A DNA stretch of 5,305 bases from positions 1 through 5,305 of the forward strand of contig MNUO01000056.1 in assembly GCA_001871015.1 (NCBI GenBank), written 5' to 3'. The position numbers and the translations under genes were made by a program. The notes beneath the pieces were generated by a model. It was not told where the DNA came from, searched no databases, and worked only from the letters and a program-made list of their open reading frames with translations. Source of the stretch: Candidatus Desantisbacteria bacterium CG1_02_38_46. Lineage in GTDB: Bacteria; Desantisbacteria; UBA1551; UBA1559. Shown piece after piece: positions 2,081 through 5,305 of the stretch (positions are counted from its first letter, which is position 1; every line of letters starts with the position of its first letter).

Positions 2081-2548
2081 ATGAAAAAGGTATACAAGGG
2101 TTCATTGATTGGAAAGGGGCTGAGGTTTGCTATTGTGGTTTCCAGGTTCAATGAGTTTGTAACCGCACGGCTTTTAGAGGGTGCACAGGATTGTCTGGAA
2201 CGTCATGGCATTGAAGAAGATGATATTGAAGTCGTGTGGGTGCCGGGTTCTTTTGAAATTCCTTTTGCGGCAATGAAGATTGCTAAGGGAAAGAGATTCG
2301 ATGCAATCGTATGCCTGGGAACGCTCATACGCGGTGATACACCACACTTTGATTATATTGCCAGGGAAGTAACAAAGGGTATTGCAGGAGTATCCATTTC
2401 AACTGGTGTTCCTGCAATATTCGGGATAATAACTGCGGATTCACTTGACCAGGCAATCCAGCGCGCTGGAACAAAAGAAGGAAATAAAGGCTGGCAGGCT
2501 GCTCTTTTTGCAATAGAAATGGCAAATCTTACAAAAGAATTGAAATAA
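2081..2548 (+). CDS. ribH: 6,7-dimethyl-8-ribityllumazine synthase
   Basis: This enzyme catalyses the penultimate step of riboflavin synthesis, condensing the butanone phosphate made by RibBA with the ribitylaminopyrimidine to give lumazine. The family assembles as pentamers or 60-subunit capsids. The protein has 155 residues, full length. Signatures in order are [15 protein letters not shown] (21-35), VPGSFEIP (54-61), [11 protein letters not shown] (83-93), [10 protein letters not shown] (109-118) and [10 protein letters not shown] (128-137). F23, H89 and R128 correspond to the active-site F22, H88 and R127 of the Bacillus subtilis enzyme. A strong AGGGGGGTGAT ribosome binding site overlaps the end of ribBA, and there is no gap between the two genes, so they are translated from one message. 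The riboflavin synthase (ribE) and deaminase/reductase (ribD) genes are not nearby in the window. Confidence 0.97.
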
Positions 2549-2550
2549 AA

Positions 2551-2630
2551 TGTAGTGGCAGAGTTTACTCGACATTAATGCAGACCAAGGTCTGCCACTA
2601 CATTGGAGCAGAGTAAACTCGGCCACTACA
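2551..2630. repeat. Compound inverted repeat between ribH and nusB
   Basis: The first 20 bases (2551-2570) and the last 20 (2611-2630) are reverse complements at 19 of 20 positions, with A2560 facing G2621. Inside is a perfect 7-base-pair hairpin GCAGACC-AA-GGTCTGC (2580-2595). The first 12 bases TGTAGTGGCAGA also pair perfectly with 2591-2602, so two alternative long stems are possible. Positions 2603-2630 are a 28-base short form of the window-end repeat (TTGGAGCAGAGTAAACTC then a changed GGCCACTACA). The element fills nearly the whole 93-base gap. No T-run follows the stem on the + strand, so it is not a standard terminator; it could affect message stability or separate two transcription units. 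Confidence 0.9.
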
Positions 2631-2632
2631 AT
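2603..2632 (+). promoter_or_regulatory. Possible promoter at the repeat/nusB junction
   Basis: TACAAT (2627-2632) matches the sigma-70 -10 consensus at five of six bases. TTGGAG (2603-2608) lies 18 bases upstream and shares only TTG with the -35 consensus. Transcription would begin near 2639, almost on the nusB ATG at 2642. That would give a nearly leaderless message and fit the lack of a ribosome binding site there. The -10 is completed by the AAT just outside the repeat. This is weak, position-based evidence. Confidence 0.25.
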
Positions 2633-2641
2633 TATTGTGAC

Positions 2642-3058
2642 ATGAAAATAAGAAGAAAAGCACGCGAATTGGCTCTCCAGGTTTTATTTCAGATAGATGT
2701 AGGGGAAATTGTCCTGGAGGATACGATTAAAAATTTCTGGAAGATTGAAAAAGTTCTTCCGGAGATCAGGGATTTTACCCTCAGGTTATCAAGGGGGGTA
2801 ATGGAAAATATTACCCAGATTAATGAGGTTATAACAAAATACACAAAGAACTGGACAATTAATCGTATAAATAATATTGACAGAAACATCCTTCGGATTG
2901 CAATTTATGAACTTCTTTACTGTCCAGATATTCCTTATAAGGTTGCGATAAATGAGGCAATCGAGATTGCCAAGAAGTACGGAACACTGGAGTCCGGCAA
3001 ATTTATAAATGGGGTGCTGGATAAGGTGGCAAAAGAAAAGGGCAAAGATGAAAAGTGA
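2642..3058 (+). CDS. nusB: Transcription antitermination factor NusB
   Basis: NusB is an all-helical RNA-binding protein. With NusE (ribosomal S10) it binds boxA RNA and takes part in the antitermination complex, mainly on rRNA operons. From ATG 2642 it has 138 residues, matching the family. It shows the basic N-terminus [19 protein letters not shown] (1-19), the central [17 protein letters not shown] (about 79-95), and [19 protein letters not shown] (about 98-116) followed by [13 protein letters not shown]. An upstream in-frame TTG at 2603 would translate the repeat and is rejected. No convincing ribosome binding site precedes 2642, since the bases upstream are ATTATTGTGAC, which is unusual in this otherwise strongly marked block. 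ribH-nusB order is common in bacteria. The end overlaps radA by 11 bases. Confidence 0.96.
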
Positions 3059-4424
3059 GAGGAAGGACAGAACAAAATTCTTCTGTCAGGAATGTGGATA
3101 CGAATCGCTAAAATGGATTGGACACTGTCCGGATTGTGGTAAGTGGAATACATTTGTTGAGGAAGTGCTGCCAGCACACTCTACTCAGGCCCAAGCATTT
3201 ATAAGTTATGACAAGCCTAAGCCAATCAAAGATATAGAAGTTCAGGAAAACTTGCGCATCTCCACTAATATGGAAGAATTTGACCGGGTCCTGGGTGGTG
3301 GACTTGTGGCTGGTTCGGTAATTTTGATAGGTGGAGACCCTGGCATAGGGAAATCAACACTTCTCCTGCAAGCTTCAAACAATTTAAGTCAAAGCAAAGA
3401 TGGATTGGTGTTATATGTTTCTGGAGAAGAATCAAGTTCGCAGACGAAATTAAGGGCAGAAAGGCTGAGGTTGAGCTCAGAGAATTTGTATGTTCTTTCA
3501 GAAACGAATTTAGATGTCATCCTTGACCATATAAGTAAGTTAAATCCTAATGCAGTAGTCATTGATTCAATCCAGACGATGTTTCGTTCAGGACTATCTT
3601 CAAGTCCTGGCAGCATTACACAGGTCAGGGAGTGTACTGCTCAGTTGATGTACCTTGCCAAAAGCAAGGGTATTATAGTTTTTATTATAGGGCACGTGAC
3701 CAAAGAAGGCAACCTTGCAGGTCCAAAAGTCCTTGAACACATTGTTGACACTGTGCTTTATTTTGAAGGTGATGAGCATCGTCTTTATCGGGTCTTGCGC
3801 ACAACTAAAAATCGGTTTGGTTCTACCAATGAAATCGGCATATTTGAAATGAGAAGTAACGGTCTGGTTCAAGTTGGAAATCCATCCCAGGTTTTCTTGA
3901 GCGAAAGACCTGTAGGTTCTCCTGGTTCTGTAGTTGTAGCTACACAGGAGGGGGACCGACCGATTTTAGTGGAGGTTCAGGCGTTAGTCACAGGTTCAAA
4001 TTTCGGCATGCCTCAGCGCAGAACCACAGGAGTGGATTATAACAGAGTTTCCCTGTTGATAGCAGTGTTAGAGAAGAGGGCAGGATTACAGGTTGGAGGT
4101 TGTGATGCATTTGTAAATGTCGCTGGAGGAATAAAGGTTGATGAGCCAGCAGCAGACCTGGGTATAATTATTGCAATAGCCTCAAGTTTTAAGGATATTC
4201 CAGTGGAGCAAGGGGTTGTCGTCTTAGGTGAAGTGGGATTATCAGGAGAAGTAAGAGCGGTTAACTATGCAGAAAGGAGGATTAAAGAATCGGAGAAATT
4301 AGGGTTTAAAAAATGTATTGTTCCAAATGGAAATTTAAAAGAACTTCAAAAATTCAAAGGTATTGAAATTGTTGGCGTGAGGATGATTCAGGAATCAATA
4401 GCAGAGTGTTTGAAAAGGGGGTGA
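3048..4424 (+). CDS. radA: DNA repair protein RadA (Sms)
   Basis: RadA is a RecA-like DnaB-type branch-migration ATPase that helps process recombination intermediates. The protein has 458 residues, essentially the same as E. coli RadA. Domains in order: an N-terminal zinc finger C-x2-C-x10-C-x2-C (C13, C16, C27, C30); a RecA-type ATPase with Walker [11 protein letters not shown] (95-104, K102), Walker B ending at D173 (VVIDSIQT), and the RadA-specific KNRFG motif (254-258); and a C-terminal Lon-like domain (about 275-455). That last domain reads EPAADLG (366-372) where Lon carries its catalytic serine, so it is non-proteolytic, as in the family. ATG 3048 is chosen over an upstream ATG at 3009 inside nusB because AAGGG (3038-3042) lies 5 bases before it and the zinc finger then sits at the normal distance. 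It is translationally coupled to nusB. Confidence 0.97.
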
Positions 4425-4427
4425 ATC

Positions 4428-5225
4428 ATGAATTTTCTTAATATTTTATTTATAATTTTATGTGCAGCATTAGGATATTATATCGGACATTTTGAACCTT
4501 CGTTTGCAGTCCTTGGTGGACTTGTAGCTATTGGTGTAGTGATTATTGAACAGGCAATTCGAAGTGTAGGGCATGCGATGAAAGGTGAGGAACAAATTTT
4601 ACAGGGGGAAATAGAGAAAACTGAAACCGTCAGTGCTGTTAAATTATTAGATACAAGTGTAATTATAGATGGCAGGATTGCTGATGTCGGTGAAACCGGA
4701 TTTATTGAGGGGACATTGGTTATTCCTCGATTTGTTCTTCAGGAACTTCAGCGTATTGCTGATTCAGATGACCCTTTGAAGAGGAACCGTGGAAGACGAG
4801 GGTTAGACATATTGAATAAATTACAACAGAGCAAAGTAGTTAAAGTCCAGATACAGGATAAAGATTTTCCGGAGATTAAAGAGGTTGATGCAAAACTTGT
4901 GAAATTAGGGAGTTTATTAAATGCAAAGATTATCACAAACGATTTTAATCTGAACAAAGTTGCACAGTTTCAGGGTGTTAAAGTGCTGAACTTAAACGAG
5001 TTAAGCAATGTGGTCAAGCCCGTTGTGTTGCCTGGAGAGGAAATGTCAGTTTTTGTCGCCAAGGAAGGAAAGGATGCAAAGCAGGGTGTGGCATACTTAG
5101 ATGATGGGACAATGGTTGTGATTGAAGATGGTAAACACTATATAAGTAAGACTATTAATGTGGTGGTCACAAGTGTGCTTCAAACTCCTGCTGGAAGAAT
5201 GATATTTACAAAAATTAGAGAATAA
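4428..5225 (+). CDS. yacL: YacL-family membrane PIN-TRAM protein (short form)
   Basis: This 265-residue protein joins a membrane anchor, a PIN nuclease-fold domain and a TRAM RNA-binding domain. Two hydrophobic segments (about 3-20 and 25-43) anchor it. The PIN domain (about 71-190) has the acidic residues expected of a metal-dependent RNase: D75 ([11 protein letters not shown]), E106 (LQEL), D154 and D172 (TNDFNLNKV), with the hallmark [13 protein letters not shown] (118-130). The TRAM domain (about 200-263) contains [25 protein letters not shown] and the SVLQT-AGRMIF ending. Family members are predicted membrane-associated RNases of unclear target. Bacillus YacL is about 100 residues longer, with more membrane helices at the N-terminus; this version keeps only two. 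The ATG follows radA by 3 bases with AAAAGGGGGTGA as ribosome binding site. The radA-yacL link is conserved in many bacteria, often with disA between, which is absent here. Confidence 0.93.
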
Positions 5226-5247
5226 AAAAAGGCAGAGTAAACTCTGC
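5222..5247 (-). terminator. Possible intrinsic terminator reading leftward
   Basis: Read on the minus strand, the repeat hairpin GCAGAG-TTTA-CTCTGC (5247-5232) is followed by CTTTTTTTATT (5231-5221): a short GC stem, a tetraloop and a T-tract. It could stop a leftward transcript from a gene beyond the window. On the + strand the same hairpin has no T-run after it, so it would not end the yacL transcript in the standard way. The stem is only 6 base pairs and the A-run may be chance. Confidence 0.3.
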
Positions 5248-5305
5248 ACTTCCAGAGTGCCTACTTTCGGCCACTACATTGGAGCAGAGTAAACTCTGCC
5301 ACTAC
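5231..5305. repeat. Intergenic palindromic repeat, long form followed by short form (right copy)
   Basis: The copy begins 5 bases after the yacL stop. Positions 5232-5284 repeat the left copy (6-58) with one mismatch. A short unit then follows from TTGGAG at 5279 through a second perfect GCAGAGTAAACTCTGC palindrome (5284-5299) to CACTAC at the window end. The short unit lacks the middle section (from CACTTCCAG to the TTTCGG before CCACTAC) and matches 2603-2629 at all but one base. The array seems to continue beyond 5305. Confidence 0.9.

Follow-up and report, generated by a model that had tools for sequence, protein, structure and literature searches.

The window, the whole stretch of 5,305 nucleotides analysed here, carries ribH and nusB with short hairpin repeats in the gap between them, and further repeat units lie at both ends of the window contig (Table 1). 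Such repeats resemble REP elements, which are short GTAG-tagged DNA hairpins present in hundreds of copies per bacterium. The preliminary description had placed a 16-base core, GCAGAGTAAACTCTGC, at 6-21, 5232-5247 and 5284-5299, and a second version, GCAGACCAAGGTCTGC, at 2580-2595, and these positions match the sequence. The two versions differ, as claimed, at four positions that make up two base pairs (G-C to C-G and T-A to C-G), and the 7-bp stem with its AA loop is kept. The stem of a further copy, GCAGAGTAAACTCGGC, is indeed broken, but this copy lies at 2608-2623, one base away from the place first given (2609-2624). A flank, CACTACA, had been described as common to both versions; it directly follows three copies only (as CACTAC at the contig end), whereas the cores at 6-21 and 5232-5247 sit inside a 46-nt composite (GTAGTGGCCRAAAGTAGGCACTCTGGAAGT plus a hairpin), with GTAG further out.

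The strand that carries the tag is the opposite of the one first described. Read on this strand, each unit opens with GTAG, and the repeat is a 22-nt element in which GTAGTG precedes a stem of 7 bp closed by a 2-nt loop, as in GTAGTG-GCAGAGTTTACTCTGC. The second version is one half of an inverted pair, a REPIN, whose other half is a half-copy on the plus strand that had been overlooked. This half-copy looks like a chimera of two subfamilies, GCAGAG..CTCTGC and GTCGAG..CTCGAC, its own stem being GCAGAG..CTCGAC, and chimeras of this type occur four times in the genome. The motif GGAA, found in the composite, precedes 22 hairpins genome-wide.

The longest nusB reading frame opens at a TTG at position 2603, inside a REP (window 2603-2641). 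We infer that translation more likely begins at the ATG at 2642; automatic annotation may extend NusB by residues that the repeat encodes.

Table 1. Repeat units and genes of the window, RAYT genes close to the repeat in other genomes, and genes with in-frame copies in the host genome (G000). Positions without a contig name are those of the window.
Feature	Position	Strand	Remarks
Composite unit, second copy, other contig end	6..51	-	98% identity
ribH (6,7-dimethyl-8-ribityllumazine synthase)	2081..2548	+	PF00885, E 4e-58; upstream of REPIN
REPIN, two inverted REP units, GTAG tags outward	2552..2601	.	49 bp between tag starts; ribH-nusB intergenic gap
REP unit GTAGTGGCAGAGTTTACTCGAC	2552..2573	+	Imperfect stem, 5 of 7 pairs
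REP unit GTAGTGGCAGACCTTGGTCTGC (second version)	2580..2601	-	13 genome copies with its stem
REP unit GTAGTGGCCGAGTTTACTCTGC (broken copy)	2608..2629	-	Single C-T stem mismatch
nusB	2642..3058	+	PF01029, E 1e-40; downstream of REPIN
Composite unit GTAGTGGCCGAAAGTAGGCACTCTGGAAGT + GCAGAGTTTACTCTGC	5232..5277	-	GGAA before last hairpin; GTAG tags further out
REP unit GTAGTGGCAGAGTTTACTCTGC, commonest form	5284..5305	-	70 copies of its stem after GTAGTG; tag at contig end
RAYT with GTAGTGGCARAG within 150 bp	G007:C191 (both sides); G011:C36, G013:C53 (near)		By coordinates
RAYT with GTAGTGGCARAG inside gene	G006:C55; G012:C25; G017:C94		Same positions as in L251, by coordinates
In-frame REP copies, G000	C109:16344-17903; C82:9993-11078; C76:7310-8257; C76:3372-4619; C118:6152-7555; C122:2532-5807; C1:2386-4452		Loci L143, L116, L110, L152, L156, L034

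Abundance, stem pairing and placement in the host genome

The host assembly is a MAG of 1.73 Mb in 133 contigs, 88% complete, of which 1.59 Mb was analysed as sequence. The string GTAGTGGC occurs 222 times in this assembly, as against 28 times for its reversed control, and GTAGTGGCAGA occurs 147 times, as against none. A perfect 7-bp/2-nt hairpin follows 170 of the 607 GTAGTG sites in the 1.59 Mb and none of the sites of seven scrambled tags. The abundance of the repeat is far above chance. When hairpins were picked without regard to the tag, 156 of 187 carried GTAG at the same offset, 2 nt 5' of the stem. The perfect hairpins comprise 23 different 16-mers, led by GCAGAGTTTACTCTGC (70 copies), GTCGAGTTTACTCGAC (33), GCAGACCTTGGTCTGC (13; the second version of the window) and GTCGAGCTTGCTCGAC (12). 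An intermediate, GCAGAGCTTGCTCTGC, is present in 8 copies and bridges both window versions with one paired change per step. Decayed single copies, with 6 of 7 pairs kept after GTAGTG, number 47.

The idea that changes in the stem are more paired than expected by chance was upheld genome-wide. Among units picked by the tag and the 5' arm only, the 3' arm was the exact complement in 62%, compared with a mean of 17% and a maximum of 23% in 1000 shuffles. In 63 distinct units, six of the seven pairs had changed on both sides, and cells changed on both sides numbered 52, compared with 22.7 ± 5.1 after shuffling. The covariation score of these sequences was 0.333 (shuffled, 0.218 ± 0.017), a value reached in 0 of 500 shuffles, and it fell to 0.07-0.17 (at most 0.171) when the partners were slid by 1-3 columns; the shuffles ignore relatedness, and the shuffle figures are therefore not probabilities. 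Because the changes mostly represent a few subfamilies, each copied many times, the number of independent compensatory events is far below the number of copies. The many copies found for each stem suggest a few founding changes followed by copying.

Neighbouring units within 120 bp of each other were direct in 76 cases, inverted with the tags outward in 27, and back to back with the tags inward in 20. Direct neighbours are mostly 20-51 bp apart, with common periods of 24, 26, 28 and 30, and the pairs with outward tags mostly have a spacing of 48-49 bp, 15 of them exactly the 49 bp of the REPIN in the window. By crude gene calls (at least 100 aa), 56 of the 170 perfect copies lie inside ORFs, compared with 87% of the sequence being coding.

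Several in-frame copies lie in conserved host genes, and the genes with such copies include those for TrpE, OppD/DppD, TsaB, ThiL, a proton-pumping subunit, an Mfd-like protein and topoisomerase I. In TrpE, OppD/DppD and TsaB the REP-encoded stretch has no counterpart in solved homologues, and the same is true of several such stretches in ThiL. Such comparisons amount to occupied and empty sites, and they provide the best evidence that points to mobility. The in-frame copies on C118 appear as three 19-aa repeats.

These traits are those of the GTAG-tagged REPs (Di Nocera et al. 2013, PMC3733652): a short perfect palindrome whose stem measures about 6-13 bp and whose loop is short (here 7 bp and 2 nt, perfect in 170 copies), an unpaired GTAG 0-2 nt 5' of the stem (here 2 nt), a high copy number with a mainly extragenic location, single, clustered and inverted-pair forms, all of which are present, and some in-frame copies in genes. 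The likeness to the 24 published families is one of form, not of sequence matching. Inverted pairs that fold into one long hairpin also correspond to the REPINs of Bertels and Rainey (2011, PMC3116915), in which compensatory changes on both sides are common, but the host genome has more direct arrays than inverted pairs. Other hosts, G006 among them, commonly have a REPIN form of 52 bp.

Occurrence in other genomes and linked RAYT genes

An exact 22-mer of the repeat was found in at least 91 stretches from MAGs labelled Stahlbacteria/WOR-3, Elusimicrobia, Zixibacteria, Planctomycetota/Brocadiaceae and Ratteibacteria. In twenty genomes bearing it, GTAGTGGCARAG has 4-205 copies per genome (control, at most 2), and all twenty contain RAYT-like genes. 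A phage origin was rejected, the 22-mer being absent from the viral collection. A literature search for REPs in Elusimicrobia gave no match, and one for RAYT and WOR-3 gave no REP paper as judged by titles and abstracts.

A RAYT gene in a genome of the same order, L274, has a GTAGC-tagged hairpin of a related type, GCAGGGCTTGCCCTGC, close on both sides. L274 defines a subfamily (about 40-55% identity, about 145-185 aa). The six RAYTs for which the matches listed place GTAGTGGCARAG within 150 bp are all members. By a hand count of the matches listed, GTAGTGGCARAG lies within 150 bp of about 6 of 23 subfamily genes and of none of about 105 others (Fisher P about 2e-5). The RAYT loci of other genomes were judged mainly by coordinates. 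In these genomes the repeat family is associated with a RAYT gene, an arrangement known as a REPtron.

The sole PDB match of L274 was E. coli TnpAREP (4er8, E 4.5e-4). The alignment pairs DHLH with EHMH and WQPNYYEHVIR with WQPRFWEHAIR, with WQP..EH.IR conserved, and the linked subfamily shares with TnpAREP both the HUH motif and the GTAG-contacting residues WQ..EH..R. When the first 91 loci of the 22-mer were searched with L274 as query, one RAYT was found, L251 (Elusimicrobia MAG, 139-663). Read directly, this gene has hairpins in its reading frame and past its stop codon, and three further RAYT genes carry the repeat at the same positions, judged by coordinates (Table 1). In-frame REPs inside the RAYT's own gene are described as a unique feature of RAYT subclass 2.4 (PMC6006769), and length, motif and in-gene REPs would together place the linked subfamily in this subclass.

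Within L251, GTAGTTGCAGAGCTTGCTCTGC encodes VVAELAL in frame and aligns without a gap to L274, and the hairpin array makes up an insert of roughly 32 aa ahead of the conserved WQPNYYEH. The gapless in-gene copy is odd and might bear on the origin of the REP.

No RAYT of the linked subfamily was found in the host assembly, and the mobilising enzyme was therefore assigned through other genomes. The cognate RAYT missing from the host assembly is the main gap of the explanation; REPtrons are reported missing from some REP-bearing species (PMC3733652). The two RAYT-like genes of the host (C109 and C60), one of them with an in-frame stop, match the linked subfamily at background level only. In place of REPs, both have unrelated terminal inverted repeats on their flanks, as do TIRYTs and TIRtrons (PMC3733652), and they were therefore rejected as evident partners of the GTAG hairpins. 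A third match (C53) was rejected as an IS200-type fragment at a contig edge. A search of the first 91 loci of the 22-mer with the host's own RAYTs as queries found no RAYT near the repeats. The C109 gene (about 6860-7870) encodes a RAYT-like protein of 327 aa that carries a DnaA-type DNA-binding domain at its C-terminus, and its flanking inverted repeats contain GGGTCAGACCTCAAC.

Origin of the repeats

We consider it highly probable that the repeats are GTAG-class REP elements, present singly, head to tail and as REPINs, and that they were spread by RAYT copying on single-stranded DNA. The structure, tag, copy number, covariation, arrangement and in-frame copies of the repeats, and the RAYT linkage elsewhere, all argue for this reading; for the RAYT mechanism itself, we argue from that linkage and from the published biochemistry of relatives. 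Acting on one DNA strand, probably during replication, a RAYT (TnpAREP, a HUH/tyrosine single-strand DNA transposase) would recognise the tag together with the hairpin, cut this element and rejoin it elsewhere. Copying would be limited to variants that still fold, so that changes in the stem would be expected to survive in pairs. Different folding variants would then form separate subfamilies as they spread, and copies that stay where they are would decay. Besides the cognate RAYT missing from the host assembly, two points stand against RAYT-driven spread: no transposition has been observed, and three of the six RAYTs close to the repeat have it within their own gene.

Amplification in this lineage could instead have run without a RAYT, through such processes as replication slippage and template switching from hairpin to hairpin; the link to RAYTs in other genomes would then be historical. 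The head-to-tail arrays with their periods of 24-30 bp, chimeric stems such as GCAGAGTTTACTCGAC and a host assembly without a cognate RAYT would all fit such a course. Slippage, however, accounts for local arrays and not for dispersal to unrelated genes, and genes flanked by repeats are easily lost from assemblies, of which this one is 88% complete. We regard this course as rather improbable.

The preliminary description had proposed that the fold is kept by selection or by copying, as RNA or as DNA. That the fold is kept is supported, and copying as DNA fits best. If the hairpins were instead kept as RNA (mRNA stabilisers, processing sites or small regulatory elements), the stem would covary since the transcript must fold. 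Consistent with this, 56 of 57 gaps lie between genes of the same direction, where the hairpins would fold in mRNA, and G-T outnumbers A-C among the single mismatches of the tag strand, many of which, however, occur at the stem end. A role as RNA is nevertheless unsupported, because the tag points with transcription in 51 cases and against it in 53, the copies lack a T-run directly after the hairpin, and an Rfam search gave 0 matches at the gathering score. Some copies also lie in reading frames, the adjoining genes are unrelated, and the GTAG tag, the inverted pairs and the RAYT linkage would be left unexplained, which makes this role very unlikely. GC-rich hairpins after genes might point to intrinsic terminators. 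The missing T-run largely refutes this reading: the next 8 bases contain a mean of 3.0 T on the tag strand and of 1.6 on the opposite one, and at least 6 T in only 8 of 170 copies. The equal orientation, tandem arrays and in-frame copies do not fit it either, and terminators can practically be dismissed.

The REP reading accounts for the paired changes, with no need of a new RNA. Published work (PMC3733652, PMC3116915, PMC8266576, PMC6006769) already covers GTAG REPs, compensatory changes in REPINs, the recognition of tag and hairpin by RAYTs on one DNA strand, and REP copies within genes. What is new here is this GTAG REP family, placed by its form, and its cross-phylum spread, which extends GTAG REPs and RAYTs to poorly studied candidate phyla. 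The folding variants, the tags (GTAG and GTAA) and the partner enzymes form a natural series on which to test the recognition of REPs by RAYTs. Tentatively, and with more doubt than confidence, we raise the possibility that several bacterial phyla have kept or exchanged one REP with an identical 22-nt sequence, along with one RAYT subfamily whose gene contains copies of its own substrate. This would make REPs horizontally mobile systems whose recognition code is fixed, and not species-private repeats, and a sister family tagged GTAA, with H for Q beside the conserved W of its RAYTs, would show that code changing.

This second hairpin family, TCAGGACTTTAGTCCTGA and its variants, has about 90 copies in the host genome; of 103 copies, 89 bear a GTAA tag. 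The GTAA tag was not found in the cited REP literature, and a search for a RAYT partner of this family in the host assembly gave background matches only. In a relative (G001:C23), two RAYT genes, L267 (160 aa) and L269, are flanked by arrays of the TCAGGACTTTAGTCCTGA family. Their guide-contact motif is WH, where L274 and E. coli TnpAREP have WQ.
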